Shown here: positions 3,317 to 39,246 of the stretch, piece after piece | Layout of the letters: each line of letters opens with the position of its first letter | Numbering within the stretch: the first letter of the stretch is position 1 | IMG/VR virus record: IMGVR_UViG_3300033388_001228 | Location: 1-45,710 of that record | Direction: 5' to 3' (one strand) | DNA: 45,710 bases | From: a virus | Made by a program: the position numbers and the translations under genes | Notes under the pieces: generated by a model | The model's input: the letters and a program-made list of their open reading frames with translations, nothing else | What the model was told of the DNA's origin: nothing | The model's database searches: none

Positions 3317-3326
3317 CAGTTGTTGA
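3313..3326. promoter_or_regulatory. Operator-like inverted repeat between divergent promoters
   Basis: TCAACA-GT-TGTTGA: perfect 6-bp arms around two bases. It covers the -35 hexamers of both divergent promoters, so one bound dimer could silence both. The same arms occur at 11203 and 13451, also at promoters. The likely ligand is the Cro/YdaS-like protein at 13177-13419 (inference). Confidence 0.55.
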
Positions 3327-3351
3327 CATAATAGTTAATCGTTGCTATATT
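3323..3351 (+). promoter_or_regulatory. Rightward sigma70 promoter
   Basis: TTGACA (3323-3328), 17-base spacer, TATATT (3346-3351): a near-consensus sigma70 promoter. Predicted start is near 3358, giving a leader of about 145 bases before the first cassette gene at 3505. That leader contains the hammerhead ribozyme. Confidence 0.75.
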
Positions 3352-3435
3352 CAGTGTGTATTAGAAATAAGCTGCACGGCACAGGATAATGTCGGGTTGA
3401 GGAGAAGCCGGACAGTAGACCGGAAACGAATCAAC

Positions 3436-3487
3436 AAGTCTGCAACATAGCAGTTGCACTGATGAGGCCTGACGCTGGCCGAAACTA
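3436..3487 (+). ncRNA. Type III hammerhead ribozyme candidate
   Basis: All conserved hammerhead parts are present in order. Stem III 5' strand AGT (3437-3439), cleavage triplet GTC (3438-3440), stem I TGCAAC-ATAGCA-GTTGCA (3441-3458), core CTGATGA (3459-3465), stem II GGCC-TGACGCT-GGCC (3466-3480), core GAAA (3481-3484), stem III 3' strand ACT (3484-3486). Cleavage is predicted between 3440 and 3441. Position 10.1-11.1 is G-C as expected. Stem III is only three pairs, so activity might need flanking tertiary contacts or dimers. The ribozyme lies in the 5' leader of the cassette operon; cleavage would leave a 5' hairpin 64 bases before the first ATG. Confidence 0.75.
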
Positions 3488-3504
3488 CCACCGAGGATCT
3501 AACC
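3473..3504 (+). promoter_or_regulatory. Start-associated leader element, copy 1 (fused to hammerhead)
   Basis: CGCTGG at 3473, then ACTACCACC at 3484-3492 followed by GAGGA and an ATG at 3505. The first bases double as the 3' side of hammerhead stem II and its GAAA core, so this copy is built into the ribozyme. The start lies 21 bases after the first A of ACTACC. Confidence 0.65.
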
Positions 3505-3675
3505 ATGAAGCAGCATAACAACCTGAGTCTGTCTGACGTCCTGATCGCTATTGCGCTGGCGCCAGTATCCAATAAGCACAACCCTTCGGCAGCGGCTCTG
3601 TCCGTCACTCCCAAGGGTCAGCACTTAGTTAACCACTACATTGGCGGCTACCACTTCTTCACGGTCGCCAGTTAG
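3505..3675 (+). CDS. Small cassette protein, unknown function
   Basis: 56 residues, ATG at 3505 preceded by ACCGAGGATCTAACC. Translation begins MKQHNNLSLSDVLIAIALAP and continues into a His/Asn-rich C-terminus with two closely spaced aromatic patches (IGGYHFFTVAS). It is the first gene behind the hammerhead-containing leader, so its ribosome site is brought near a new 5' end if the ribozyme cuts. Too short for a family assignment; the strong ribosome site and position make it likely real. Confidence 0.55.
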   Translation: MKQHNNLSLSDVLIAIALAPVSNKHNPSAAALSVTPKGQHLVNHYIGGYHFFTVAS

Positions 3676-3718: not shown

Positions 3719-3955
3719 ATGAGAAACGCGATACACATACAGGCCATAGAGGCCAACGATTCTTACTCTGGCAAACCTGAAGCGGTCTTGAGGATCTACC
3801 ACGCTCATCACCATAACGCAGTAGAGGTTCACCACTCATTCAGTAACGCGGCCATTGGCTGCATCTCTGGGTGGGTTGAGGAGGGTTACGTTGTCCTCTC
3901 TGATGAAGAGAACGTAAAGGAAGATCTTAGCCGCAGGATCGTAGCTGCAGCTTAG
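3719..3955 (+). CDS. Small His-rich protein, unknown function
   Basis: 78 residues from the ATG at 3719, chosen over an upstream in-frame ATG at 3689 because AAGGAAACG sits just before it. Sequence begins MRNAIHIQAIEANDSYSGKP and contains a His-rich stretch, YHAHHHNAVEVHH, that could bind metal. The C-terminal half is acidic and helical. It follows the 3505 gene by 43 bases in the same direction. Unknown function. Confidence 0.55.
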   Translation: MRNAIHIQAIEANDSYSGKPEAVLRIYHAHHHNAVEVHHSFSNAAIGCISGWVEEGYVVLSDEENVKEDLSRRIVAAA

Positions 3956-3960
3956 TGGCT

Positions 3961-4024
3961 CAAGTGAAGTGTCTGGCTCCCCGGGCGCTTTGCTGGACTT
4001 ACTACCACCGGCAGGAGAAACATC
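3961..4024 (+). promoter_or_regulatory. Structured start-associated leader, copy 2
   Basis: CAAGTG (3961-3966) abuts a 10-bp hairpin (AAGTGTCTGG, loop CTCC, CCGGGCGCTT; 3967-3990), then TGCTGGACTT, ACTACCACC (4001-4009) and GCAGGAGAAAC before the ATG at 4025. Arm sequences differ from the other copies while pairing is kept, so RNA structure appears selected. Confidence 0.65.
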
Positions 4025-4159
4025 ATGAAAGAAACAATCGATCTTACACCTACCAAAGAAGGCTACATTCACATGCTGACTGTGATCATTGAAAGCAGCA
4101 CCAAGCCCAGTGATATTAAGTGGGCCAAGAATGAGCTGTTCAAGTTAGCACGCGGTTGA
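4025..4159 (+). CDS. Small helical phage protein
   Basis: 44 residues, ATG at 4025 behind the structured leader with GCAGGAGAAAC. Sequence begins MKETIDLTPTKEGYIHMLTV and ends KWAKNELFKLARG. This layout, a tyrosine helix followed by IIESSTKPSDIKWAKNEL, matches a widespread small phage family that lies in early cassettes and has no known biochemical role. The stop at 4157-4159 is followed directly by the next structured leader. Confidence 0.65.
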   Translation: MKETIDLTPTKEGYIHMLTVIIESSTKPSDIKWAKNELFKLARG

Positions 4160-4160
4160 T

Positions 4161-4222
4161 CAAGTCGAGGCTATCCATCTGGGTGGCCTCTGCTGGATTT
4201 ACTACCACTGAGGAGATCTGCC
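4161..4222 (+). promoter_or_regulatory. Structured start-associated leader, copy 3
   Basis: CAAGTC (4161-4166) abuts a 10-bp hairpin (GAGGCTATCC, loop ATCT, GGGTGGCCTC; 4167-4190), then TGCTGGATTT, ACTACCACT (4201-4209) and GAGGAGATC before the ATG at 4223. CAAGTC directly before the hairpin is the same hexamer that carries the hammerhead cleavage triplet in copy 1. Confidence 0.65.
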
Positions 4223-4414
4223 ATGCCTGCATTATGTGACAAGTGCCGAAACGAGGATCTGTCTGTTTGGGATACCCATCGGGTGGCTGAACTTACGACA
4301 GACTTTTTCGGCAAACCAATAAAGATAGTCAAGTATCTCTGCAATGAGTGTCTTGGCCATGGTGAAAACATTCACACGAACAACTACCACAAGGAGAAAC
4401 ATCATGCCGCATGA
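4223..4414 (+). CDS. Zinc-ribbon-like small protein
   Basis: 63 residues. Two CxxC knuckles, CDKC at residues 5-8 and CNEC near residue 40, are separated by about 31 residues, as in a zinc ribbon. The C-terminus is His/Asn/Lys-rich. Expressed from leader copy 3. Its 3' coding end contains another ACTACCAC copy (4383-4390) which serves as leader for the overlapping next gene at 4404. Probably a nucleic-acid or protein-binding zinc domain; exact role unknown. Confidence 0.6.
   Translation: MPALCDKCRNEDLSVWDTHRVAELTTDFFGKPIKIVKYLCNECLGHGENIHTNNYHKEKHHAA
4383..4403 (+). promoter_or_regulatory. Start-associated leader element, coding-embedded copy
   Basis: ACTACCAC at 4383-4390 then AAGGAGAAACATC and ATG 4404. 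The element lies inside the end of the previous gene, yet keeps the 21-base distance to the start seen in copies 1 and 4. Confidence 0.55.
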
Positions 4415-4607
4415 ATTTGATGACTACACAGCTGTCGGGATCTGCGAAGGGTTCGTTGAGTCTGATAGCGAAGAGCAGGTTATCGCTGCTTGGCAATACC
4501 TGATCGACAAGGGTTTGTGCTGGCAGCTTCAGGGCTGGTTCGGCAGAGCAGCTGAGTCGCTCATCGAGCAGGGCGTCTGTCACCACAAAGAGGAGAAGGT
4601 GTCGTGA
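4404..4607 (+). CDS. Conserved small phage protein (WQLQGWFGR type)
   Basis: 67 residues from the ATG at 4404, chosen because AAGGAGAAACATC precedes it; it overlaps the previous gene by 11 bases. The core, AAWQYLIDKGLCWQLQGWFG, followed by RAAESLIEQGVC, is a well conserved small helical family in phages of Gram-negative bacteria, with no known function. The stop overlaps the GTG start of the next gene (GTGA). Confidence 0.7.
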   Translation: MPHEFDDYTAVGICEGFVESDSEEQVIAAWQYLIDKGLCWQLQGWFGRAAESLIEQGVCHHKEEKVS

Positions 4608-4774
4608 GCGTGATCATCAACCAGCCTGAACTCAAAGAGGACTGGCAAACCAGAGTGCGCGGCAAACTCAAGGATGAGTACGATATCTACGTGAGCCTTT
4701 GTGATGATGGCGATGGCCACGATATCGATACCGGGCTACCACTTAAAACTTTCGACGAATGGCTTAATAGCTGA
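4604..4774 (+). CDS. Small acidic protein with GTG start
   Basis: 56 residues starting with GTG at 4604 that overlaps the upstream TGA; the ribosome site is the AGGAGAAG in the end of the previous gene. It reads (M)SVIINQPELKEDWQTRV, then a strongly acidic middle (SLCDDGDGHDIDTG) and a C-terminal LKTFDEWLNS motif. Such FDEWL endings recur in small phage proteins placed beside the preceding family. Translational coupling supports it as a real gene. Confidence 0.55.
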   Translation: MSVIINQPELKEDWQTRVRGKLKDEYDIYVSLCDDGDGHDIDTGLPLKTFDEWLNS

Positions 4775-4783
4775 GGAGAATGT

Positions 4784-4981
4784 ATGGCAGTAAAAATTAT
4801 CAAGATCCTTTCCTGCAGTGGGTGTCCACATAAACAAGAGATTGGACACCTCTGCCTGAAGGGGCCGAACGTATACGAGGTTGATCACTACTTCTGTGGT
4901 CTTACCGTCGAGTCTTTCGAGCTAACGAACATTCGGGTCTTGCCTGACTGGTGTCCTCTCGAAGACTACAACTCAAAGTAA
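4784..4981 (+). CDS. Cys-containing small phage protein
   Basis: 65 residues, ATG at 4784 preceded by GAGGAGAATGT. Residues 11-14 are CSGC followed by PH, then single cysteines at LCLKG and YFCGL and a final PDWCPLEDY. Four to five cysteines with a terminal WCPL motif match a common small phage zinc-type protein of unknown role. Expressed within the rightward cassette row; the next leader with a hairpin begins directly after its stop. Confidence 0.6.
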   Translation: MAVKIIKILSCSGCPHKQEIGHLCLKGPNVYEVDHYFCGLTVESFELTNIRVLPDWCPLEDYNSK

Positions 4982-4983
4982 AT

Positions 4984-5043
4984 CAAATCGTGGCTCTTCA
5001 AGGAGGGGCCACCGTTGGATTAACTACCACCGAGGAGGATGTT
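4984..5043 (+). promoter_or_regulatory. Structured start-associated leader, copy 4
   Basis: CAAATC (4984-4989) abuts a 9-bp hairpin (GTGGCTCTT, loop CAAGG, AGGGGCCAC; 4990-5012), then CGTTGGATTA, ACTACCACC from 5023 and GAGGAGGAT before ATG 5044. Same order and spacing as copies 2 and 3, with different arm sequences. Confidence 0.65.
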
Positions 5044-5313
5044 ATGTCCTACCCATATCGATGCAGCAAACCCGGCTGCCGTAAGCGTATCGCTCTCAAG
5101 CAAAAAATTGAGCAGTACGTTGACGGCAAAAATTGTCCGGCGTGTGGGAAAGACTCCCTGAAGCTGGACACCAACAAACGTCGTGAGGGCCGTCGCATGA
5201 GATGTTCGTGTGACGGTTATCACTTCCCGCACCGCAAAGGATCTTTGTGGTGCATCCATTCAACCATAGTGCCAACCGATGACGATCATCGGAACCGCGA
5301 CGTAAGGAGGTAA
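5044..5313 (+). CDS. Zinc-finger phage protein
   Basis: 89 residues from the ATG at 5044, selected because the ACCGAGGAGGAT ribosome site immediately precedes it. Contains CSKPGC near the N-terminus, CPACGKDSL near residue 38 and a C-x-C (RCSCDGYHFPHRKGS) near residue 55 with a final WC. The C-x-CDGYxFPHRKGS ending is characteristic of a phage zinc-ribbon family placed among early genes. Zinc would fold the domain; DNA or protein binding is likely but not shown. Confidence 0.65.
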   Translation: MSYPYRCSKPGCRKRIALKQKIEQYVDGKNCPACGKDSLKLDTNKRREGRRMRCSCDGYHFPHRKGSLWCIHSTIVPTDDDHRNRDVRR

Positions 5314-17342: not shown

Positions 17343-17799
17343 TATAATTCATAACACATTGGGCGCACTTGTTTTTATAACCGCTTTCTTTTTTGCTTGC
17401 GACGCAGTTGCCACTGAGTATGACGTCGATAAGATTGGGCCTTACGGAATGACCCAGATCGACAGAGTGTACGACGGCGACACGTTCTACGGGTGGGCGC
17501 AGACATTCATCTACCAGACCACGTACATGAAGATCCGCATCAGGAGTATCGACACCCCTGAGATCCGTGGATCTGGCGAGTGCGAGAAAAAGATGGCCTA
17601 CGCTGCACGCGATTACCTTATGAGCTTACTGGCTAACGCGAAGTCTGTTACTCTCGACGACTTAGGGTATGACAACTTCGGGAGGGTTCTCGCATCCGTT
17701 CACGCAGACAACGTAAATGTAGCCGCGAAAATGATAAGCTCAGGCCACGGACGCCCGTATATAAAGGGAGCTTCCGGTGGGTGGTGTTTACGTGGTTGA
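17323..17799 (+). CDS. Exported thermonuclease (SNase-like)
   Basis: 158 residues. The first 30 form a signal peptide (basic start, hydrophobic core LGALVFITAFFFACDAVA, likely cut after AVA). The mature part is an OB-fold SNase domain: RVYDGDTFYG, IRIRSIDTPEIRG, AYAARDYLMSLLANA, GRVLASVHADNVNVAAKMIS. Staphylococcal-nuclease-type enzymes cut DNA and RNA with calcium. An exported nuclease in the recombination operon may act in the periplasm or outside the cell. Overlaps the DUF968-like gene by 20 bases. Confidence 0.85.
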   Translation: MKQTIINIIHNTLGALVFITAFFFACDAVATEYDVDKIGPYGMTQIDRVYDGDTFYGWAQTFIYQTTYMKIRIRSIDTPEIRGSGECEKKMAYAARDYLMSLLANAKSVTLDDLGYDNFGRVLASVHADNVNVAAKMISSGHGRPYIKGASGGWCLRG

Positions 17800-17885
17800 C
17801 TGAAATAACGATCAGGGCCGTGTTTTGGCTGGCCCTGATCATCGTTATCTCTGACTTCTTTGGTTACCAATTCACCGTAGGTTAG
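17784..17885 (+). CDS. Possible small membrane peptide over the terminator
   Basis: 33 residues from a GTG at 17784 (or 17781), overlapping the end of the thermonuclease. The sequence contains TEITIRAVFWLALIIVISDF, a plausible single membrane helix, then FGYQFTVG. AAGGGAG lies upstream at a wide spacing. The coding part contains the convergent-gene hairpin, so the hydrophobic sequence may be a by-product of that structure. Low confidence. Confidence 0.3.
   Translation: MFTWLTEITIRAVFWLALIIVISDFFGYQFTVG
17805..17848. terminator. Hairpin between convergent operons
   Basis: ATAACGAT-CAGGGCC pairs with GGCCCTG-(ATC)-ATCGTTAT: 15 pairs with a three-base bulge. It separates the rightward recombination operon from the leftward virion operon. 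The stem is strong; T tracts on both sides are weak. Confidence 0.55.
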
Positions 17886-20800
17886 GGTGAACCTTCGACC
17901 TCTTCGCATAGTCCTGAATCTGTTTCATCTTCCACTTAATTTGATCCCTGAAATTTTTACTCAGAGAGCGGCGGTTTTCTGAACTCAGATTAGGATCCTT
18001 TAGCTCAAACTTCATCCGACTCTTTATGTCCTGCAGGTCACGCTTCATGAACTTTATATTCACTGCGCGACTACGCTCTGGCTGGATCGGATAAATATTC
18101 ACACCAACAACACGAGCCATTGACTGGGCCAGCGTTGGTTGTGGATTACCCCATCGGTCTTTGTAACCTGAGCCTGCTTGGATGATCTTAGCCAGAGGCC
18201 CACCTGACGTTGTCCATGGTGGCGCCATCAGTGTGTACGTGTAGTTCAATCGACTCAGCATCTGCTGGTATGGAAGGTCGCCGTCACGAACAATCTCTTT
18301 CCGAGTAAACGGATCGACGTTGGTGGACACTGCAGAAATTAAGTTTGCAAGCGGGCTGCCGAACACGCCGGCACCTTGCAGAATATTGCGAGCCTCAACA
18401 GGTTCGCCAGTAACCATGCCCTTACCAACCTCACCGATGTCCTGAGCAATATCAGTCCACGCAGTCCACGGAAAGAAGTAACCCATGTTGGTTGCCATCC
18501 ATCTGCCTTGCTCATCTTTCATTGGCATGATCACGGCATGGCCGCGCTCAATTAACCAGCTTGGCATAGCTTCCTTAAGCGCCTCGATATCATCTTCACC
18601 AACATCATTCATCGACGCGGCAATCAGGCCCATTCCTTTCAGCATCAGGTAGTAAGGCACGAACCTCCACGGCGCAGTCGCAGCAACTTCCAGAAGACGG
18701 GGTAGCACCTTCATGTAGAACGTAAGGAACGGGATCCCGACTGGCGCGTTGCGAGCGGTGCGAATTGTTTTGTTAACAGCTGAGTAATCAAACAGCCATC
18801 GGTTCGCTTCCTGTGCTGCCAGTGCTGGAGTGTTGCCGTTGGTTTCAACTTCGTGAATTATTTTTGCAACCTTACTTAACACTTCAGCGTGCTGATAAAT
18901 CTCACCAGCCTTTTCGATTATCATGCTGGCAACATTAAGCAGGCTCGGGATACTCATCTTGCCTTTGTTGCGAGCCTGAAAGTCTACGAACTCACGCTCG
19001 ATTGCGGCCAGCTCGTTGGCAGAGAATGTTCCGGCAGTTATGCCGTACTCCTGAGCGATCTTATAATACTGTCCGTCCTTTCGTATCTCGCCAAGCGCAC
19101 GAATAAGTAACGGGATCATTTTGTGGATCGGGACTCCGCTTAAGTTAAGCAGAACCCAGTTCGACACAAGGTTACGCACTTGTGATGGCGGGTTAAGAGA
19201 CACCTTCATGACCTTCCACATCTGTGTGATCTTTGTGCCGGTACCGCCATGACTAAACATGCTCATCCACGCATCGGGGTTGTCCTGAAGACCAGCGCCT
19301 GATCCTGCGATGTCATCATAGATTGCGCGCTTCACAATTAATCCGCGTAAAATTCCGTACTGAGGTGTGTCAGGAATTTGAGCGTACTCATCAGCATCGA
19401 ACTGTTCGTCCTGTTGTACGTCGGCAGCCAGCTTCTCGTACTGAGAAGCAAGGCTATCCATCTTACTTTTCTGTGGGCTATCCGATAACTGTGAGGACAT
19501 AGCGCGCAGTCGCTTCGCTTCGTTCTGCAGCCAGAAAGGCGTCACCTCACGCATCACATCAGTCCCGGGGATCTGGATCTGCACGAGTTGGTCTTGAAGA
19601 ACCCAGTTAGGATTCTGTAAAATTTGATCGAAGAATTCCATGATTGCAAGATCACGAGACGGGATTCCTATAGCGCGTGACAACAGGAAGGCTGGATCTT
19701 TGATCTCACCAAGCACAACCTCACGGTATTCTTTTGTTAGATTTTCACTGCGCTTCTTCGCGTAACCCTGCTTCGATAGTTTCTTGCCAGTACCCAGAGT
19801 TTTAATTGCCTTGTCGCCCATCAGGTAAGCAAGGTAAACACGTGGCAAGTAACGGCTCTCGTAATTCTGGAACGATGAAGACGGAATGATGCCGCGCTCA
19901 ACCATCATCTGGCCCATGGAATTAATAATGTTCTTTGCCTTGATAGCGTTCATGCGAACTTCTTTGTCTTCGATGATGCTGGGCTTAACGTCTCTGTCAG
20001 TAAGGTACTCGAACACATTGAGTGATTCTGTTTCACTCAGCTTATTAAATGTTTCGTACAGCAGTCTGGCGGAGTCTTGACCTTGCTGGATGAGCGCCTG
20101 CAGTTTACCGCGTGACTCACGATACGATTCGAGATCAATCAGATCACCGAACCCATCGATTTTATTATCGAGCTGATGAATCCAGTTCATGACGCGATCT
20201 TTGTACGTCTTCTTGTTCTCGTCGGTTATGTCCGACTCCATCTGGTCGCTGGCTTCAGGAGAATTTTCTGTATTGCGGTTTGCGCCACGAGAAAATAATG
20301 GCTGACCATCGAGTGCGGCCTCACGCATTTTGTCAGTGACATCAACAGAGTGAACTCGTGTTTCGGATGCACGATACTCCGCAAACAGCTCATCTCTTTT
20401 TTCTTGTGTAATTCCTCTCCAGTAATCCTGCTGCTCATCTTTTGGCATACCGAGCGCGTCCATCACTCGTTCGCCAGAGATTAAATCTTTAGTATAAAAA
20501 GCAAACTCGGTCGTACCGGTTTTTGCTCCCCACTTTTTAACGTACTTGTTAACAGTCTTCGGTAGGATCTGGTCATAGAAACCTTTCATACCTTGACCGC
20601 CAATCTTTAGATCTTGGCCTGCATAAACTCCGTTAGGTTCTTTTTGTTTTTGTATTTTTTCAGCAAGCTCTTTCCCAACAACAGCATCAAGCTTATCTTT
20701 ATGATGCAGCCCAAAATCAATAGAGTCGCCTCTGGTATCAATCCCCATTATCTGGAATGAGTCAGGCTCTTTTCTGAAAGCTGAAACCTTCTCTAGCTGT

Positions 20801-23800
20801 TTGCTTAAATCATAACGCTCAGCCTGCTGCTCACCAGTAGTCCACGCAATTTTATCGAAACCGTTCTCTGCTGCGTAACGAATCATTCGTTTCATTGCAA
20901 GCAGTGGCCATGACGTCTTAAATGGTGCGTCAGGTACAGTCTTTGGTTCAATCTTCTTTATCGCAACGGTTGGGCCATCCCATCCTGACGCCATCATTTC
21001 TTTCTGGTATTTTTTAGCATCCCCCACATTAGGGAAGAAGTGATGTTCGTCGGAGCTTGGGTTATATACTCTCCATACAATACCGCCTTCAGTACCGTAC
21101 CCTTTTTTGCGGCCAGCCTGATGCCAGTCGCTCTGCACTTCTTCGAGAAATAAAACCTTGCTGCCGTCTACGTCAGTACGTTCGTTCATGCGAACGTGGG
21201 CAATGATGTTTGTCTCCTTAAAGTGAGAGCCTTTATATGTTCCAACTGTTTCATCAGGACGATCACCGGTAACATCAGAGATCATGTCACCAAGAATAGT
21301 TTCGTCTTTGGCCCCGGTCTTCCTGACCGGAATCCTTAATAAAACCTCACGATAATTTTTACCGCCGGCCAGCTGGTAATCGTGGTATTTTGTATCGCTT
21401 AATTCCTGAACGCCATACTCTTCTTCGAGATCAGTCCACGCTTCCTCTTCAGTCTCAAACAAGTTGTGCCGTCTAGCTCCGGCCATCTCTCCAGTAATAA
21501 CGTAGCCGTCTTCAGCGTTGCTGTACTCAACATCAAACATCTCGCGCAGCTTGGTAGCATTATCAACCTGCTCCTTGACCACCTCCTGCACTTCAATTTT
21601 ATTTGCCTTCACATAGTCGAGTACATCGGCCTTGGAAATTTTCGCATCCTGCTCAGCAAGCCAGTCCAGAACTCCAGACCACTCGACCTCTTCAGATTTG
21701 ATCACCCCCTTTTTTACGAACGCATTGATGGTGGCAGCGTACTGTTGACCGGTACCCTTGCCGGGTAATTTGTCGGTCAGCACTGACTCCATGTGTGAGT
21801 AAAATGGTTTCTGAAATCTTGAGAGCAACGGATGGATCGCCTTGGCAACCTGCCAGCTGGCACTGCCGTCGATCATGGTGCCACGCATGCGGCCCAGTGC
21901 GCCGAGGACTTCGTCATCGGTAACCTTGAGTCCACTGAAAACTTTACGCATCCACTGGCGGATCCATGAGATCAGCTGGCGAACGTAGGAATTTGCCGGG
22001 CTGGTTTCAGCCTTCATGGCCAGCCACTCTTCTGCAGCAACCAACCGATCTGCTGGGTTATTCAGATCCAGCTCATATTCGAGCGCGACCTTGCTCATCT
22101 CCTCACGGTTGGACTTGAACACACCCCGGAGGAACGGAACGATGTCATTACCCATGGTGCCGCGAAGCCCGGCGTGACCCAGTACCTCATGGAAGATTAC
22201 CTTGGTTGCGTGATCGGCGCTGGATATGCCGTCGGCTACGAGGTAGACGGTACCGGTAATTGGATCGTACAGGCCATCGACATCGTCCTGAGCATTTGAT
22301 TTTTCTACAAAATCTTTCAATGCGGTCGGCAGATGCAGGTAGTCCTCGACCACCACTATCTGTGGAGCATTCCTCCAAGCGTTGGTGAGCTGCGACACGT
22401 GGGCGTTGAGATCCTGTACGGTGGTTCGACCCTTGCCTCCCTTGCGGAGCATTGGTTTGCGCTGCTGTCTGACCATCTCTGATCTGAGTTCGTCCTGAGT
22501 GAACCGGTTGTACTCGGCCATGTTCAAGCCTTCGGTTGCCTCACGGCCCTGCTCTTTCGCCATGGATTTTTCAGTGCGCTCGAGCATGGTCATGATCGAC
22601 TTGATCGATGGAAGTGTTTCACGTGGAACAAATCCGTACTCGCCCGGGTCGCCAAAATCTCCGGTCAGCACACGGTGCAGGGCATCCCCGATGTTGGTGT
22701 TGTACTCACGACCGAAGTCGGCAGGATTAACCTTGATGCCCATATCTTCCATCAGCATGCGCTGGACACGGAAGGTAACGTCTTCCCACTCGATGGCACG
22801 CTGAGCCTCAAGCAAGGTCAGTGGCTCCAGTTCGACGGTTACCTGACGTTTGGATGGGTGGCCCCGGGTTGCGGCCCATGGTCGACCCATGCGTCCCTCA
22901 CGACGGCTTTCCCCGTAGCGGTCTTGCATGATGTCTGCAGTGATAGCGTGGCCCAGCTCGTGGATGGTGCGCCACTGGCGAGTGTATTCCTCATCCTTGA
23001 ATGATCCGTGAGCCACGCGAGGCTCATAGATCCAGATCACCCCGGTGCCGTAATGCTCTTTCTTGAGCTTCGGTACCGTGAACGTCACCCCGGCGGCAGG
23101 ATCCTCGTGGAACGAGAACACCTTAACCCCATAGCCATACGTGGAAAGGGTTGCACTTGTTTTGCTGGGGTCAGAGATTAACTCATCGAGGTCGTAAATT
23201 TTGAGATCTTCGGTGGTGTCTCGCTCTTCATTGAGGGTACCGAAGCGACCGTAAATCTCCTGCTGCGCTGCAGCTGGATCGGTCAGTCGAGATAGGGGTA
23301 CTGGTGAGGAAGTCTGCCTTTCTGGCGCGGTGTTCCATCCGTATTTGCCTGCGAATTTTTCGTTAATTCGCCCGACTGCTTGCCGCCTACCACGAACCCA
23401 GTCGAGTAGATCGGATCGTCCGGCTTCGCGGATCTGATCTTGATACTCCTCACCCGCTTTTTGTTTGTTCCAGTCGTTTGCATAATATTCACCTTCTGCC
23501 TTAAAGTCAGCGACGTCAATGATATCAAACCCAGCGAACGTGTCAACAATTGTTGAGATGTTTGCTCGATACTTGGCGTCGGTTAATAGTAGCGGCTTGC
23601 CGTCCACATTCCTGAAGTTAATAAATCTCAGGTTGCCGTTGATCATGCTGAACTCAGCGCCCGGCATGACGCTGCTCACATGATCATAGAACTCCTTAGC
23701 CATCTCTGCCGTGAAGGGCGTCTCAGCTGTGATCTCATAGCCAACCGCAGCCTTCTTACCTGTCAGGGTAGGGTCAGCCCGGTGCCACGGTACGGCGTCC

Positions 23801-26800
23801 TGCGTCATGATGATGCCGATCATGTTGGAGTACAGGTCTACGATCTCGCGCTCATATACCCCGGCCTCCTTATCGGCCACCACCTTGGTGATAAAGTTCG
23901 GGCTGATCGATAGTTCGAAGCTGCCCATGCCGTGATCGGTGCGAGAGAGAACAGCGCCAAGCTTCTTCAGGATGACGTCGTTGCCTTCCGCGTCGGTAAG
24001 GATGTCGTAGATGGCTTCGTTATATTCAGCCTTCTGCTCGTCGGTTGCGGAGTGAATCCCCGGGAGGATCCCAGACCCAACTGAAGGCAAGGCCTCCCAT
24101 GTGACCACCTCGGTGGCCCGGTTCAGGTAGTGGGCAAAGTCCACAGCCGCCGGTATCTTGAATTCCTTACCTGCGGCCTCAGCCTTTTCCAGTCCGGCGA
24201 TGTTGCGCGCATAAAACCACAGGGCAGCCTGAGCCTCACGAGGCTTCAGGGTTGTGCCATGCTTTTTGTTGTAGGCGTCGGTGATATCGACGTTCAGGTC
24301 ATGAGCAAAGTCATACTGAGCCTTGCCTGCAGATACCCCATCACCCTTCTCAGCGTACCCAAACAGGCGCAGCATCCAGCGATCCTGAGTGGCCGCCTCC
24401 TCGAACAGGTTGGTACCGAACGTGGAATCGTGCAGGTTCCGGTAGAAGTTCATCAGCTTATCTTCAACGCCCGGAATTTTGGTGGTGAAGTCTTTGGCTG
24501 CCAGCAAGGCCTTGATGTATTTTTTGGTACGATTAGGGAACCGGCCAGCTCGTGGCTCCATGTTTCCCCGGGCAATCTCGTACAGCGACTTGATCGCGGC
24601 GGTGGTGTTACCACCCAGTGAGTTGGCCTGAGAGTAGAACGCGAACAGGCGCACGATATTCTCAGCAACCTTCGGGTCATTGTTGGCCGCAGCCATGATC
24701 GCCTTGCCAGAATTGTCGTACCACTCGAACGTGTCAGGGGCTTGGGCCATATCGCTTTCCATGGCGGTCACCATCTTTTTCACCAGAGCGGTTCGCTTCT
24801 GTGGTGACTTCACGCCCGGAGGTGCGCCGGCAAGATCTCCTGCAGCGTTAAGGTACCGGGCCGTACCCTTCAGTTCGCGGCGAGGTGCGCGCACTGGTTT
24901 CTTTTTCTTGGCCTTCTTCGACATCTTAGGCTCAGCGACGGCAGCCTCTTCAGGCATAGCCATCGCCGTCTTTGGTGTCAGCTTAGTAACGTCCGCCTGC
25001 TGGGCCTGCTTGGTGGTATCCTCTTTCAGCCACGCCTTGAACTCAGGCATGGTCATCTCTACGATGGACTCGAACCCTGCCCAGTCCTTCGCATAGTTGC
25101 CTAGATACTCAGCCTTAGCGGCCTCGGAAGTCTTCGGCCCGATGACAACCTTGTGTTCATCGAACTGTCCGGTGTACGGGTTGTTCTGATTGACGACGAA
25201 TACGGTGTCGGCTGCCTCTGCCCCGTCGGCCAAAAAGACATCAACATGATCCCCGTCTGCGCCCTCTGACTTCTTGATGTAGCCGTAGTGGCTCTCCATT
25301 TTCTGCGACCATTCCTGCCCACCCTCATCCTTACCTGAACGAACAGACCCTTTCGGGTTCTCGATCGCTACCGGTAGACCTTGGACGGATACATGGCCCT
25401 TCTTATAATTCCCAGATTCCTTTTGAGCTTCAGTAGGTTGGGTGTCCACCTCAGCCGCCGCCTGATCAATACCACTCGCTGCCTCCCTTAACGCTTTCTG
25501 CATCTGCGTTTCAGTTTTCCGGGTGATCGCCTCAGTCTTTTTCGTTTCAACTTCCGATGCCATAGCGACGGTCTGTTTGACGTCGGCTACCTTCTTCGGT
25601 GGTGCCATGGCTGGCTTCTCGATGCCGACCTCGACTCGATCCTTCTGGATGGCATCAGCTGTACGGGTTTCATCCATCGCAGCAAAGCCCAGCTCCTGCT
25701 CAAGGCCTTTGATCATGCGCTCTTCTTCTTCATACTTAACGTGAGCGGCTGCGGCTTTCTCCATGAACTGGCTGGAGTCCTCCATCATCTCCTCTTCCCG
25801 GGCCTCAAGCTCGATCTCTGAGGCGCCACCTTCTTTGGCCTCACGATACTCGTCAGCCTTCGCGTCCAGCTCATCACGGCGCTTCTTAAGGTCTTCGTCT
25901 TTCTCGATGTCTGCCTTAACCTTCTCGACAGACTGGCCCCTGACGCCTGCCAGCGTCGCGCTCAGTACCTCGCCCGGGGCTTGCACGAACTCGCCAGCAA
26001 CCTCAGCCATGACCTCACCAGCTCTGATCTCTCCTTCAGTGACCCATTGGGCTGATGCCTCACCCAAACCTCCGAGAGCGCCCTGTACGGGCATCTGTGC
26101 TGTGACATTGAACATCTCCTTAGCCATGGCACTCTTGATGGCCGCTGGCGCCATGGTCTTCGAGGCAAGGCCACCTGATACAGCATCGAGGAACCCGATG
26201 ATTAATGCGCGGGTATTAGCATCTCGCTTCATCTCGTCGAAAAATTCTGGCTCACTGATCGCCTTGAGCATCGCCTGCTCGTTGTTGATATCGACACCCT
26301 GACCATGGAGCTTACTGATCATGGCCTCATTCAGGGATGCGGCACGCTCAACGGTAAAGGAGCCAGACCCCATGCCTGCAGCAAAACCGACTGGCCCCAT
26401 CACCAGACCGCCAGCGACGCCCTTGATTATTGGGATCGTCATCATGGGAAAGCTCCGCACTCCAACCTCAGCGATGAACGAGACAGGGGCAATCTTCGCT
26501 ATGTCCCACGCCTCATCGAACGTGTTCGCCTGCATGACGGCCTCGGACACAGGCGCACGCGGGACGGCGGCGCCCTCCTTCTCGTGACGTCGCTTCGATT
26601 GGAGTAATTCTTTGCGGGTGCTTTCTATGAACTTGCGTTTTTTGGGGATCGCTGCCTTGGACTCCTCCATCCACTGCTCGAACCGATCAGGGTTTTCTAC
26701 CTGCATTTGCCGGGCAAAGGAATCTTCTGGGAACGGGGTTCCGGCCTCGAAGTCCTTGAACATCTTCTCTTTTTCTGCGAGCTGAGAAAGCTCGTCGGTA

Positions 26801-27096
26801 TCCTCGACGACCGCGGCACCACCGGCTGACGCCATCACATCATGGACACCACCCTTAAGGCGCATGCCAAGGCGCTGAAAGAACCCGGTATCTTCTTCGT
26901 ATTTTTTCTGGCGGTGGGTTACGTCTACGTTCTTTGTCTTCTCATCGAACGCTTCACGCACCATGGCAACATCGTCTTCAGGAGACAATGCTGGTGCGAT
27001 ATTTTTCTCGAAGTAGGCGTCGCGTATTGGCTCACGCTCGCTTTCTGGAATCGCCTGAAAGGACTCAGACGCTACGATCTCTTCCCAGCTAGACAT
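17872..27096 (-). CDS. Giant internal virion / polyvalent protein (3074 residues)
   Basis: Last gene of the virion operon. Approximate layout: soluble start WEEIVASESFQAIPESERE; hydrophobic Gly/Ala region about 205-270; coiled coil about 395-480; inorganic-pyrophosphatase-like domain about 567-690 (GHVSVQGLPVAIENPKGSVR, then HYGYIKKSEGADGDHVDVF and FDEHKVV); metallopeptidase signature RTIHELGHAITADI near 1379; second FHEVLGHAGLRG near 1637; polyvalent-protein-associated block EVQSDWHQAGRKKGY near 1987; C-terminal half helical with hydrophobic stretches near 2815. Such polyvalent proteins are known to combine enzymes that enter the cell with the DNA. Position after two internal proteins suggests ejection. 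Confidence 0.8.
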   Translation of the reverse strand: MSSWEEIVASESFQAIPESEREPIRDAYFEKNIAPALSPEDDVAMVREAFDEKTKNVDVTHRQKKYEEDTGFFQRLGMRLKGGVHDVMASAGGAAVVEDTDELSQLAEKEKMFKDFEAGTPFPEDSFARQMQVENPDRFEQWMEESKAAIPKKRKFIESTRKELLQSKRRHEKEGAAVPRAPVSEAVMQANTFDEAWDIAKIAPVSFIAEVGVRSFPMMTIPIIKGVAGGLVMGPVGFAAGMGSGSFTVERAASLNEAMISKLHGQGVDINNEQAMLKAISEPEFFDEMKRDANTRALIIGFLDAVSGGLASKTMAPAAIKSAMAKEMFNVTAQMPVQGALGGLGEASAQWVTEGEIRAGEVMAEVAGEFVQAPGEVLSATLAGVRGQSVEKVKADIEKDEDLKKRRDELDAKADEYREAKEGGASEIELEAREEEMMEDSSQFMEKAAAAHVKYEEEERMIKGLEQELGFAAMDETRTADAIQKDRVEVGIEKPAMAPPKKVADVKQTVAMASEVETKKTEAITRKTETQMQKALREAASGIDQAAAEVDTQPTEAQKESGNYKKGHVSVQGLPVAIENPKGSVRSGKDEGGQEWSQKMESHYGYIKKSEGADGDHVDVFLADGAEAADTVFVVNQNNPYTGQFDEHKVVIGPKTSEAAKAEYLGNYAKDWAGFESIVEMTMPEFKAWLKEDTTKQAQQADVTKLTPKTAMAMPEEAAVAEPKMSKKAKKKKPVRAPRRELKGTARYLNAAGDLAGAPPGVKSPQKRTALVKKMVTAMESDMAQAPDTFEWYDNSGKAIMAAANNDPKVAENIVRLFAFYSQANSLGGNTTAAIKSLYEIARGNMEPRAGRFPNRTKKYIKALLAAKDFTTKIPGVEDKLMNFYRNLHDSTFGTNLFEEAATQDRWMLRLFGYAEKGDGVSAGKAQYDFAHDLNVDITDAYNKKHGTTLKPREAQAALWFYARNIAGLEKAEAAGKEFKIPAAVDFAHYLNRATEVVTWEALPSVGSGILPGIHSATDEQKAEYNEAIYDILTDAEGNDVILKKLGAVLSRTDHGMGSFELSISPNFITKVVADKEAGVYEREIVDLYSNMIGIIMTQDAVPWHRADPTLTGKKAAVGYEITAETPFTAEMAKEFYDHVSSVMPGAEFSMINGNLRFINFRNVDGKPLLLTDAKYRANISTIVDTFAGFDIIDVADFKAEGEYYANDWNKQKAGEEYQDQIREAGRSDLLDWVRGRRQAVGRINEKFAGKYGWNTAPERQTSSPVPLSRLTDPAAAQQEIYGRFGTLNEERDTTEDLKIYDLDELISDPSKTSATLSTYGYGVKVFSFHEDPAAGVTFTVPKLKKEHYGTGVIWIYEPRVAHGSFKDEEYTRQWRTIHELGHAITADIMQDRYGESRREGRMGRPWAATRGHPSKRQVTVELEPLTLLEAQRAIEWEDVTFRVQRMLMEDMGIKVNPADFGREYNTNIGDALHRVLTGDFGDPGEYGFVPRETLPSIKSIMTMLERTEKSMAKEQGREATEGLNMAEYNRFTQDELRSEMVRQQRKPMLRKGGKGRTTVQDLNAHVSQLTNAWRNAPQIVVVEDYLHLPTALKDFVEKSNAQDDVDGLYDPITGTVYLVADGISSADHATKVIFHEVLGHAGLRGTMGNDIVPFLRGVFKSNREEMSKVALEYELDLNNPADRLVAAEEWLAMKAETSPANSYVRQLISWIRQWMRKVFSGLKVTDDEVLGALGRMRGTMIDGSASWQVAKAIHPLLSRFQKPFYSHMESVLTDKLPGKGTGQQYAATINAFVKKGVIKSEEVEWSGVLDWLAEQDAKISKADVLDYVKANKIEVQEVVKEQVDNATKLREMFDVEYSNAEDGYVITGEMAGARRHNLFETEEEAWTDLEEEYGVQELSDTKYHDYQLAGGKNYREVLLRIPVRKTGAKDETILGDMISDVTGDRPDETVGTYKGSHFKETNIIAHVRMNERTDVDGSKVLFLEEVQSDWHQAGRKKGYGTEGGIVWRVYNPSSDEHHFFPNVGDAKKYQKEMMASGWDGPTVAIKKIEPKTVPDAPFKTSWPLLAMKRMIRYAAENGFDKIAWTTGEQQAERYDLSKQLEKVSAFRKEPDSFQIMGIDTRGDSIDFGLHHKDKLDAVVGKELAEKIQKQKEPNGVYAGQDLKIGGQGMKGFYDQILPKTVNKYVKKWGAKTGTTEFAFYTKDLISGERVMDALGMPKDEQQDYWRGITQEKRDELFAEYRASETRVHSVDVTDKMREAALDGQPLFSRGANRNTENSPEASDQMESDITDENKKTYKDRVMNWIHQLDNKIDGFGDLIDLESYRESRGKLQALIQQGQDSARLLYETFNKLSETESLNVFEYLTDRDVKPSIIEDKEVRMNAIKAKNIINSMGQMMVERGIIPSSSFQNYESRYLPRVYLAYLMGDKAIKTLGTGKKLSKQGYAKKRSENLTKEYREVVLGEIKDPAFLLSRAIGIPSRDLAIMEFFDQILQNPNWVLQDQLVQIQIPGTDVMREVTPFWLQNEAKRLRAMSSQLSDSPQKSKMDSLASQYEKLAADVQQDEQFDADEYAQIPDTPQYGILRGLIVKRAIYDDIAGSGAGLQDNPDAWMSMFSHGGTGTKITQMWKVMKVSLNPPSQVRNLVSNWVLLNLSGVPIHKMIPLLIRALGEIRKDGQYYKIAQEYGITAGTFSANELAAIEREFVDFQARNKGKMSIPSLLNVASMIIEKAGEIYQHAEVLSKVAKIIHEVETNGNTPALAAQEANRWLFDYSAVNKTIRTARNAPVGIPFLTFYMKVLPRLLEVAATAPWRFVPYYLMLKGMGLIAASMNDVGEDDIEALKEAMPSWLIERGHAVIMPMKDEQGRWMATNMGYFFPWTAWTDIAQDIGEVGKGMVTGEPVEARNILQGAGVFGSPLANLISAVSTNVDPFTRKEIVRDGDLPYQQMLSRLNYTYTLMAPPWTTSGGPLAKIIQAGSGYKDRWGNPQPTLAQSMARVVGVNIYPIQPERSRAVNIKFMKRDLQDIKSRMKFELKDPNLSSENRRSLSKNFRDQIKWKMKQIQDYAKRSKVHPNLR

Positions 27097-33899: not shown

Positions 33900-36800
33900 T
33901 TAAGCTAATGCAACGCTGATCCAGCTGCCGTCATAGACATATAGATTGTTGTTGGTTGTGTCGAAAATAAGGGCCACCCGGCCAGTCTTTGTAGTCGGCG
34001 TTCCTGTCGGAACTCCAGCACAAGTTGGAATATACAGGAATCCATCGGTCGCTGTCGTGGCCAACGCAGCACTACCTATAGACACGTTGGCATTGTTATC
34101 TATCTGGAGAGCTTCCTTCCATGTGATCGCGGTATCGATGGTGCCAGAGGCCGCCACCTTAAAGTCAATAATGCCTGCCGCCATATCAATAATGCTTGCA
34201 GCCGCCGTTGCGGCATAGGTATCGACACCGCTGCCGTTGCGATACATGCTCTGACACAGCTCAAGGCCAGTAGACAGTGCCGCAATAGCAGACTCACCAC
34301 CAAGCTGGATGACCGTTCTTGATCCATGCCATGCAGGATTGAATGACGTATCAAACTTAAAGACACCACCAGTCTCCATCTCAAGCAGCGTAACCCACGT
34401 TATGGCGGTATCCACCGTTCCAGCCTGAGCATACTCAAAGGCTATAGATGGCGTAGTTCCGTCTCCAAAAGTTAATCTGGCTGGCCATGCTGTGCCGCTA
34501 GAATATTTCCATGACCCATCATCATAGGCAAACCTTGCTATTGATGAGTCTGATGACGCCATTGCAAAGTTATCACCGACCTGTAGTGATGCGGCGGTGT
34601 ATCCAAGCAGGCTGGTTGTGCCAACGCCGACCTCTGTTCCGGCTGCTTTCAACCTTACGGTGGATCCGTCAACAAGCTCGAAATCACCACTGGCGGCATT
34701 CTTCAAGTACCAGCTGGCTACAGAGTTTCCTAGCCTGACATCAACTGCATTAGCGGCATTGTCAAGAATATAAAGCCGGTTGCCATAAATAGTAAGGTCG
34801 GTGTCGTAATATGTGGTGTTACCCATTGTCCAATCATGGGTATCTCTGCCAAACGACATAGCCTCAACGAAAGTAACGGCGTTCCCTATCGTTCCACTTG
34901 CTGCGTACTGAGAGTAAAACATCTTGGCTGAGGCGTGAGGAGTCCATTTAGCTGCGTAGCCAGTCTTTTGATATTTGTACCCGCTAGAATAATAATAATT
35001 GTTGCCAACATAGCCGCCATTCGAGGCGTTGAAATTACCCTCAAGAACAAGGCCTGCGCCAACGTAGAATCCAAAGATAGTACTGGCACTAGCCCACGCT
35101 GGAGGCTCTGCAAACAAACTAACAGAGCCAGCGCCATCAAGCACTATTCCTTCTTTGTTGGCTTCACCTAATTTTAAGTAGTTATTCTCATAGTACATTC
35201 CAGAGTTAGTACTGGATGTGAACGAGTACGCTGGTGCAGCTTGCGTACCACTGGCAGCCTTAGAAACTTGCAGCAAGAGAAGGTCTTTATGAACCTGAGT
35301 ATCACCATCAGCCTGCAGTGTTAATGCTGAAGTCCAGCTTATAGAAGTATCAATAGTGCCGCTGGAGGCTGTCTTGAAGTAATGGCCACCGAGCTGCTGC
35401 TCATATTTGCTGGCCACTTTGGTTGATTTATATTTCCAGTTTGATACATCACGATAAGAGTTATCGGTCATGCCGATAATTTCAAGACCGGCAGAACTAT
35501 CGTAATAAAAGGCGCCTTCGTCGCCAATCTCTATAGCAACAAAGTCAGTCTCCCACGCTTCATGATCGCTGGTTCCAACACCAATATTGCCAGTGGTGTA
35601 GTTGATGTTACTACCACTGGTTGTCCATGGGCTAGATGCTAACCCGGTACCACCAATCTGGAAGTCAGTACCTGCATCATCTGTAAACCAAAGAGTATTT
35701 GCTACATCGTTCTTAACCCAGATCTGGCCATAACCCGCAGCATCAGTCTCAGCAGCTGCAACTTCTGCGATCTTGATTCCACCAGCTGAGCCGATTCTCA
35801 TGCGCTCAACACCGCCCGTTATTAGGGAAATATTATTTGAGGCGAATCTGCCGATACCGGTGTCAGCATCAGTTCTGCTAGGAAGAAATACAGGATTAGT
35901 GCCACTAGAATCCTCATTTTTTAATTGAGGAGCATTAGAAGCAATTCCTAATATTCCTGCAGCCATTATTCTCCACTGACTAGCTCCTGCAATACTTATA
36001 TGTAATTCATCATCGTTCTTCTCAGAGAAGCCTGTATCACCATCACCAAATGCAAGCGTTGGAGTAGCCACCTCATTAACCTGCGGGATTATTGTATGCC
36101 CACCGTTGTCGATGGTTAGGGCGGTTTTCCATGAGATGGCGGCGTCGGCAGTACCTGATGCAGCTACATAAAAATAATGGAATCCTCCAGATTGCCGGTA
36201 CGAAGTGGCTTGATCGGTGTCTTGATACCTCCACCCTGTGCTAGAGTCGTAGGCGTTCTGCGATAGATGAATAACTCCATTTATTCCGGGGCTGGTAGTG
36301 GCAGAAATAGACCCGTTACTTCCAAGCTCAAGCACAGAAAGGGTAGCGTCCCAGCTCTCTAATCCATTGCTAGACCCTATCCCAACATTCTGGGCAGCAT
36401 CAATCCTGATGGCCTCAGTGGCGAATGTGGCTACAACTAATACGTCATCACTTAGTTCATAAAACCCGGTATCTCCATCACCGAAAGATAAAGTAGGGGT
36501 TGCGGAATCATTCTCTAAAGGCAAATGCAATTTGCTAGTTGGGACTGTGATTCCAATGCCAACATTACCAGTGCTGTAATAAATATCAGAGCCGGTAGTA
36601 ACCCATGGGCTACCGCCAGCTACTCCTCCGCCAGCAACCTCGAAGTCAACGCCGGCATCGTCGGTGAACATTAGAGTATTGGCTGTGTCGCTCCTTACCC
36701 ATACCTGACCGTAGGAGGCGGTGTTTGTAATTGCTGCAACGGACTCTTTTATCCTAAATATTCCCAGAGGAAGCGAAACTTCTCCAGAAGGATCGAATGA

Positions 36801-39023: not shown

Positions 39024-39246
39024 CGTAGCTGCGTACATCAACGGCATCCCACTCGCTTAACCCACCATCCCAGACGCTGTAAGTAATTACATATCTGGAC
39101 TCACCTACTATTGCTACTATTTCATCACTCTCAATAATTGCTCGTATGCGCGGGAAGACATGTGCAACTATCTTCATCGCATCCTGAACAGGCTCTACTA
39201 CCGCGTTCAGCTTTACATAATCAATCGCAGCTCTTATGTGTGACAT
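39010..39246 (-). CDS. Small late-operon protein
   Basis: 78 residues, ATG at 39246. MSHIRAAIDYVKLNAVVEPV followed by DAMKIVAHVFPRIRAIIESD, an alpha-helical protein with alternating hydrophobic residues, ending with an acidic Asp/Glu/Tyr tail. Lies between the BppU-like and fibre genes and overlaps the fibre start by 14 bases. Resembles small tail-completion proteins by size and place only. Function unknown. Confidence 0.5.
   Translation of the reverse strand: MSHIRAAIDYVKLNAVVEPVQDAMKIVAHVFPRIRAIIESDEIVAIVGESRYVITYSVWDGGLSEWDAVDVRSYDEYD

Follow-up and report, generated by a model that had tools for sequence, protein, structure and literature searches.

Interrupted Hairpins between Early Phage Genes: a Covariation-Supported Family of Candidate RNase III-Type Processing Sites Found beside Hammerhead Ribozymes

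INTRODUCTION

Three gaps between small early genes of a phage each hold a structured leader that shares letters with a nearby hammerhead ribozyme and lacks its catalytic core. Are these leaders relics of ribozymes or RNA elements of another kind, and what would they do to the message that carries them? The phage is represented by a 45,710-base IMG/VR record, the whole of which was analyzed and is called the window here. Its internal virion protein matches PHROG 511, its structural proteins are like those of Bcep22-like podophages, and the closest named relatives, PBC5, Atu_ph08, Itty13, and BcepIL02 among them, are ∼31 to 34% identical. Neither the early region nor the first 25 kb has a DNA match in the named phage collection. 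The window also has very long open reading frames (ORFs) of 3074 and 1715 codons, at 17872-27096 and 33900-39047 (-), and the 1715-codon ORF has no PHROG match at 1e-4.

The early operon consists of a sigma-70-like promoter and small genes extending up to 6352; the gene order and the promoter suggest that the region forms one polycistronic RNA starting from the promoter at 3323. Its relevant features are these:

3323..3351, + strand: sigma-70-like promoter of the early operon (TTGACA-17-TATATT), kept in the related record L069 at about 1376-1403
3437..3486, + strand: type III hammerhead preceding the first early gene (3505-3675), within its leader; matched by Rfam Hammerhead_3 at 27.6 bits (E = 0.08)
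3955..4002, + strand: hairpin spacer 1 (base to base), between the ORF ending at 3955 and ORF 4025-4159
4155..4202, + strand: hairpin spacer 2, between ORF 4025-4159 and ORF 4223-4414
4978..5024, + strand: hairpin spacer 3, between ORF 4784-4981 and ORF 5044-5313
4001..4009, + strand: ACTACCACC box adjoining the Shine-Dalgarno sequence, with equivalents at 3484-3492, 4201-4209, 4383-4391, and 5023-5031
4383..4403, + strand: hairpin-less leader of gene 4404-4607, with the ACTACCAC box only; the 82%-identical L069 gene has a hairpin

RESULTS

Each leader is a single interrupted hairpin

An earlier note on this DNA placed CAAGTG, CAAGTC, and CAAATC at 3961, 4161, and 4984, and these motifs are found there, each with a 10-bp hairpin closed by a 3- to 4-nt loop. 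The 3′ part is also as described, with (T/C)G(C/T)TGGA, a few bases, ACTACCAC(C/T), a Shine-Dalgarno (SD) sequence, and ATG, and with one correction, in that the copy at 4161 reads ACTACCACT. The tail motif GCTGGAYTTACTACCAC occurs three times in the window at up to three mismatches, versus 0.14 occurrences expected. That first reading missed that the conserved flanks pair together, enclosing an invariant A-G mismatch, and that the upstream stop codon sits at the helix base. When the leaders are folded separately, CAARTS pairs with YGYTGGA to form an outer helix, and each leader becomes one interrupted hairpin of ∼20 bp, composed of a lower helix, the invariant A·G mismatch, two or three pairs, a weak step, and an apical helix of ∼10 bp.

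Compared with 200 dinucleotide shuffles, the folds of spacers 1, 2, and 3 have z scores of -2.23 (6/200 shuffles as good), -5.19, and -3.75, and the three score 74.9, 81.4, and 79.0 bits under covariance model R1 (see below), respectively. The stop codon of the gene upstream is at the helix base of spacer 1 (TAG, 3953-3955), within the lower helix of spacer 2 (TGA, 4157-4159), and at 4979-4981 in spacer 3 (TAA), and the next ATG lies 22, 20, and 19 nt past the helix. A DNA-level palindrome is unlikely, because G-U pairs support the helix on one strand only and pairing fails on the opposite one; the reverse strand of spacer 3 scores 21.7 bits versus 79.0 on the forward strand. Stable stems after stop codons might also be transcription terminators or attenuators, but a T-run follows none of the three stems and a terminator scan lists none of them; terminators were ruled out on that scan, and we give next to no weight to this class of explanation. 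No promoters are listed closely 5′ of the three stems.

Compensatory changes support the fold in 11 members

The three window leaders and a leader in L069 have a common extended fold, (GU).N.GAUC.A.AGU.C.[10 bp].U.GCU.G.GAUU.N.(AC), in which one outer-helix pair covaries, being G-C in three leaders and A-U in spacer 3. Over the 20-pair structure of these four, 93.8% is paired and eight pairs carry two-sided changes; none of 500 shuffles scores as high on four of five measures, and 4/500 do so on the fifth. A larger alignment (A7) contains 11 distinct members: the three window leaders, the L069 leader, G007a and G007b, G009a and G009b, G101a and G101b, and G102, the names referring to further phage records. 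Identical leaders of L068, L051, G051, and the window were counted once, and a fourth G007 leader (L391:1225-1320, minus strand) was excluded from the counts.

All 11 members fold similarly (z scores of -2.23 to -6.80), with standard pairs in 91.9% of 197 cells, versus 35 to 42% in slid controls. Two-sided changes are present at 13 of the 18 consensus pairs, and none of 500 shuffles matches the alignment on any of five measures. The core of the interruption is far stricter than the arms: C-G followed by A-G is invariant (11/11), the next pair is A-U in 10 members and G-C in 1, and the pair after that is U-G, G-C, or A-U in 10/11. Loops vary in length and sequence. G101a is an otherwise continuous hairpin of >20 bp, interrupted by the A-G and a U-U. 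The proposal of the earlier note that the leaders are under selection for RNA structure is thus borne out by the folds, the compensatory changes among relatives, and the covariation over 11 members.

The element is present in several phages

Covariance model R1, built from the three window leaders and that of L069, gave high scores for those copies only when run against 69 sources, and retrieved G007a (E = 5.4e-7) from a sister phage picked via its capsid protein (32 records). G007b and G009a came from reading the early operons of G007 and G009, where they were first chosen by script and by eye among the candidates listed, and they are therefore scored only by models trained on them. Model R2, built from seven sequences, found G009b (E = 2.2e-4), which was absent from its training, and scored three more sequences outside its training, G101a (3.7e-9), G101b (2.9e-6), and G102 (4e-5); G101b was found by the model alone, and G101a and G102 by the last pattern scan together with R2. 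Under models not trained on them, members score 27.1 to 50.9 bits, and the best score in 50 unrelated control records is 19.7 bits. A covariance-model search of phage genomes, of the kind that the earlier note had recommended, has yielded further homologues, and models and patterns together place the element in five further phage records (L069, G007, G009, G101, and G102).

Nothing more rose above background with R2 over 100 relatives or R3 over 47 records. Relatives by capsid protein (MCP) were searched in part, with 32 (R1), 50 (R2), and 31 (R3) of the 80 listed, and R2 was also run over 45 of the 80 DUF932 relatives, plus 5 of a further 14. At E ≤ 0.02, R3 matched none of six named phages whose virion protein is related. 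A tail-pattern search gave 66 stretches, of which none but the window's near twin had a comparable hairpin leader, and the only member among the matches listed for a gapped pattern is in L156, the L069 record. The last pattern scan gave 25 stretches, 21 of them without a comparable hairpin and the other four being G007a, G009a, G101a, and G102; bacterial genomes gave one pattern match, a Prevotella stretch without such a leader. Since the window's capsid protein has no match in G101 or G102, the element does not seem to be confined to one phage lineage.

Relatives of a DUF932-like protein led to L068, a near twin of the window with identical leaders, and to L069. In L069, a hairpin leader with a compensatory change precedes a gene 82% identical to window gene 4404-4607, and the gene behind G007a has a 46% identical homologue in G009 without a hairpin. 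The first-gene leader of L069 has the same promoter followed directly by ACTACCACC, with no hammerhead, whereas the window has ∼114 nt of extra leader, hammerhead included, between promoter and box. These differences between L069 and the window indicate that hairpins and hammerheads come and go and that the box persists.

In Rfam 15, nothing matches the leaders, at thresholds of E ≤ 5 for the window and E ≤ 1 for the relatives scanned, which supports another suggestion of the earlier note, that of an unknown cis RNA class. No such element appears in the titles or abstract openings found among open-access papers.

Stop codon, hairpin, and start codon are held in register

The element is intercistronic in 10/11 members, lying between a stop codon and the following start. 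The upstream stop codon begins within -5 to +2 nt of the 5′ helix base (10/11), and in most cases the element itself supplies it, in or at the lower helix. The helix spans 44 to 50 nt (10/11), over which the 18 consensus pairs and the mismatches make up an interrupted double helix of ∼20 bp, and the next start codon, preceded by an SD, is 17 to 25 nt from the 3′ base on its downstream side (10/11). The exception, G102 (L442 4957-5024, minus strand), has no ORF directly upstream and an ATG 75 nt off. This leader variant has a separate stem-loop with a T-run between hairpin and start.

The box just downstream has a wider distribution. CTACCA is upstream of 9 of 105 candidate starts in the window, versus a 0.6% background, and it lies just 5′ of the SD in eight distinct leaders, with starts at 3505, 4025, 4223, 4404, 5044, and 5573 (+) and at 1618 and 11182 (-). 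Starts with neither hairpin nor ribozyme also have it, and ACTACCACC is a general SD-adjacent box of this phage.

Other gaps of these operons hold hammerheads

The window hammerhead scores below the gathering score of 48.5, and its core letters are intact. Its stem III is of 3 bp and uses ACT of the general ACTACCACC box. Immediately 5′ of it, the region 3350-3440 contains a CCGG..CCGG hairpin whose fold is not significant (z = -1.27). G007 has a type II hammerhead (L391:1281-1347, minus strand, 62.6 bits) in the same early operon as its hairpins, as does G009 (L400:18590-18646, 26.8 bits, under the gathering score of 37). The window operon has its hammerhead in the first leader, ahead of its first gene; the two sister phages have theirs in other gaps, between genes. 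A further type II hammerhead of G009, at L400 about 17773-17840, is recognized by sequence reading and is not called by Rfam. G006 has two type II hammerheads (L403 214-280 and 861-925, 60.1 and 33.1 bits) and no hairpin found in the R2 and R3 searches; no hammerhead was found at E ≤ 1 in the L069 record or in those parts of G101 and G102 that were scanned.

We note two further observations in these sister records. The excluded G007 leader (L391 1225-1320, minus strand) keeps TATGTGGATTAACCAAC after a type II hammerhead and has lost the fold (z = -0.59); it could be a decayed copy and might represent a hairpin spacer that a hammerhead has replaced or become fused with. Matches to GOLLD RNA are present in G004 (L402 4333-4820) and G006 (L403 10538-11002), at 131 and 113 bits, both under the gathering score of 150 and each with a tRNA inside.

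The proposal that the leaders are degenerate or stem-II-less hammerheads does not survive this comparison. The hammerhead frame is shared in part, in that CAAGTC, GCTGG, and ACTACCACC are common to the window leaders and the hammerhead leader at 3437-3486, but the box is general. The CUGAUGA and GAAA core is absent from all 11 aligned members. The suggested AGT-ACT stem III has no pair with a two-sided change and is broken in spacer 3 (one of four sequences), whereas the competing outer helix covaries. The sister-phage members read CAAUU/UGUGG, with nothing in common with the hammerhead frame, and the hammerhead leader scores 11 bits under the hairpin model, within noise. We find it scarcely credible that the leaders are hammerheads of either kind.

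Comparison with RNase III sites of T7

RNase III sites of phage T7 were used as a yardstick, and six stretches were folded. The stop-hairpin-start geometry agrees with that of two of the six. At R0.5, the gene 0.4 stop codon is at the helix base (offset 0), the span is 46 nt, and the start is 19 nt after; at R1, in the centroid fold, the offset is -5, the span is 45 nt, and the start is 23 nt after. R1.1 and R1.3 have a T7 promoter between stop and hairpin, R0.3 has no upstream gene, and the 0.6-0.7 gap has no hairpin. Like our elements, R0.5, R1, and R1.1 are flanked by a stop codon upstream and the next SD downstream, and the T7 sites have an apical helix of 9 to 10 bp with a short loop, an interruption, and a lower helix.

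The elements differ from the T7 sites in their invariant A-G and second weak step, and no sequence-structure match is detectable. In the whole T7 genome, R2 gives the R0.3 site (853-913) as its best match, at 15.3 bits (E = 0.083), and R1.1 as the seventh of 11, all within control noise (19.7 bits, 50 unrelated records); R3 finds nothing at E ≤ 0.02. RNase III is not known to require an invariant A-G pair. R1.1 and R0.5 are named as RNase III sites in PMC6993053. PMC6121014 describes R1.1 as an RNase III site located between genes 1.0 and 1.1; the RNA is 60 nt long, has a 4/5-nt internal loop, and is cut at a primary site both in vivo and in vitro. By contrast, the interruption here consists of two single mismatches, without an asymmetric internal loop of that kind. 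None of seven phage records gave an RNase III domain in a search that does recover one from eight of 14 controls, including E. coli, and a host enzyme must therefore be assumed.

DISCUSSION

On balance, and with some reserve, we favor the interpretation that the leaders are a new family, absent from Rfam, of candidate RNase III-type processing sites, which work beside hammerheads in cutting polycistronic early mRNA. The early region would be transcribed from the promoter at 3323 as one RNA, and between some of its genes this RNA would fold into the interrupted ∼20-bp hairpin with the upstream stop codon at its base, an arrangement on which sequence, fold, and covariation agree. Host RNase III would then cut near the mismatch zone, leaving the upstream message with a stem-loop that protects its 3′ end and a downstream message that begins shortly before the ACTACCAC-SD box. 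The hammerheads at other junctions of the same operons would presumably do the same job by self-cleavage. A single cleavage that leaves a folded 3′ end stabilizes the message, according to PMC6993053. Hammerheads in close series around prophage genes are described in PMC3088659, together with the suggestion that they process long phage transcripts into single-gene or operon-length messages. The hairpins resemble such phage-operon hammerheads (Rfam Hammerhead_II and Hammerhead_3) in occupying the same operons and the same type of gap and, likely, in the purpose of cutting polycistronic RNA (PMC3088659), and differ in having neither a catalytic core nor a three-way junction.

What counts against the RNase III reading, besides its cleavage step being inferred, is the strict A-G mark and the position of the stop codon, since a stop codon fixed to within a few nucleotides could equally point to translation. 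The hairpin might act without any cleavage, by folding the spacer away and so bringing the next SD to a ribosome that has stopped at the base, or through a phage or host protein that recognizes the A-G-marked helix and regulates the gene behind it. Such a role would suit the register of stop and start codons around the helix in 10/11 members, the enrichment of the SD-adjacent box at starts, and an invariant mismatch that, within a variable helix, resembles a recognition mark. However, the SD is outside the helix, recognition of the loop is not expected because its sequence and length vary, genes gain and lose the element, and two T7 RNase III sites share the geometry; we consider a translational role somewhat unlikely. 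There is a smaller chance that the leaders represent a new cis-RNA class of several phage lineages, a self-contained unit of stop codon, obligatory A-G hairpin, and SD box that is either read by a dedicated factor other than RNase III or self-cleaving, and is functionally interchangeable with hammerheads. A new class of self-cleaving ribozyme as such, interchangeable with hammerheads, appears very improbable: the leaders share the operons and gap type of hammerheads and have a conserved non-Watson-Crick core (C-G then A-G, 11/11), but they are single unbranched hairpins with very few invariant positions and without a match to Rfam ribozymes. RAGATH motifs are structured RNAs near genes associated with twister and hammerhead ribozymes, and our leaders were found through the same association logic; unlike those motifs, they are matched by no Rfam family.

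The unit could also be a cassette linker with no processing role, serving as a spacer or as a recombination joint at which small early genes are exchanged, comparable to the SAS/ESAS elements of cluster K mycobacteriophages. It usually carries its own stop codon and precedes different genes, and both the L069 gene and the gene behind G007a have homologues (82% and 46% identical, respectively) that lack it. In PMC3203893, the SAS is a 13-bp GGGATAGGAGCCC at the start codon that contains the SD. The likeness is that an imperfect inverted repeat precedes a conserved box adjoining the SD, ahead of many nonstructural genes of one phage group, some of which have the box only. Here too, an inverted repeat is 5′ of an SD-adjacent box in three leaders of the window and others have the box only. 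The SAS sequence as given there (PMC3203893) is absent from the start codons of our leaders, whose 3′ flanks read taccaccgaggagg and similar, and the ESAS arms keep a consensus sequence, whereas the arms here vary with pairing kept. A recombination joint needs conserved DNA, and G-U pairs that fail on the other strand (21.7 versus 79.0 bits for spacer 3) also speak for RNA, so that a mere linker seems improbable.

If the RNase III reading is correct, these phages would have two unrelated cutting devices within a single operon, self-cutting ribozymes and hairpins for a host enzyme, which would help to explain why hammerheads are scattered through phage operons. The arrangement would resemble the engineered expression cassette described in PMC6993053, with a ribozyme ahead of the gene and an RNase III site behind it. 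The element itself also offers Rfam a new candidate family with covariance support, and its members form a natural set of ∼50-nt intercistronic spacers.
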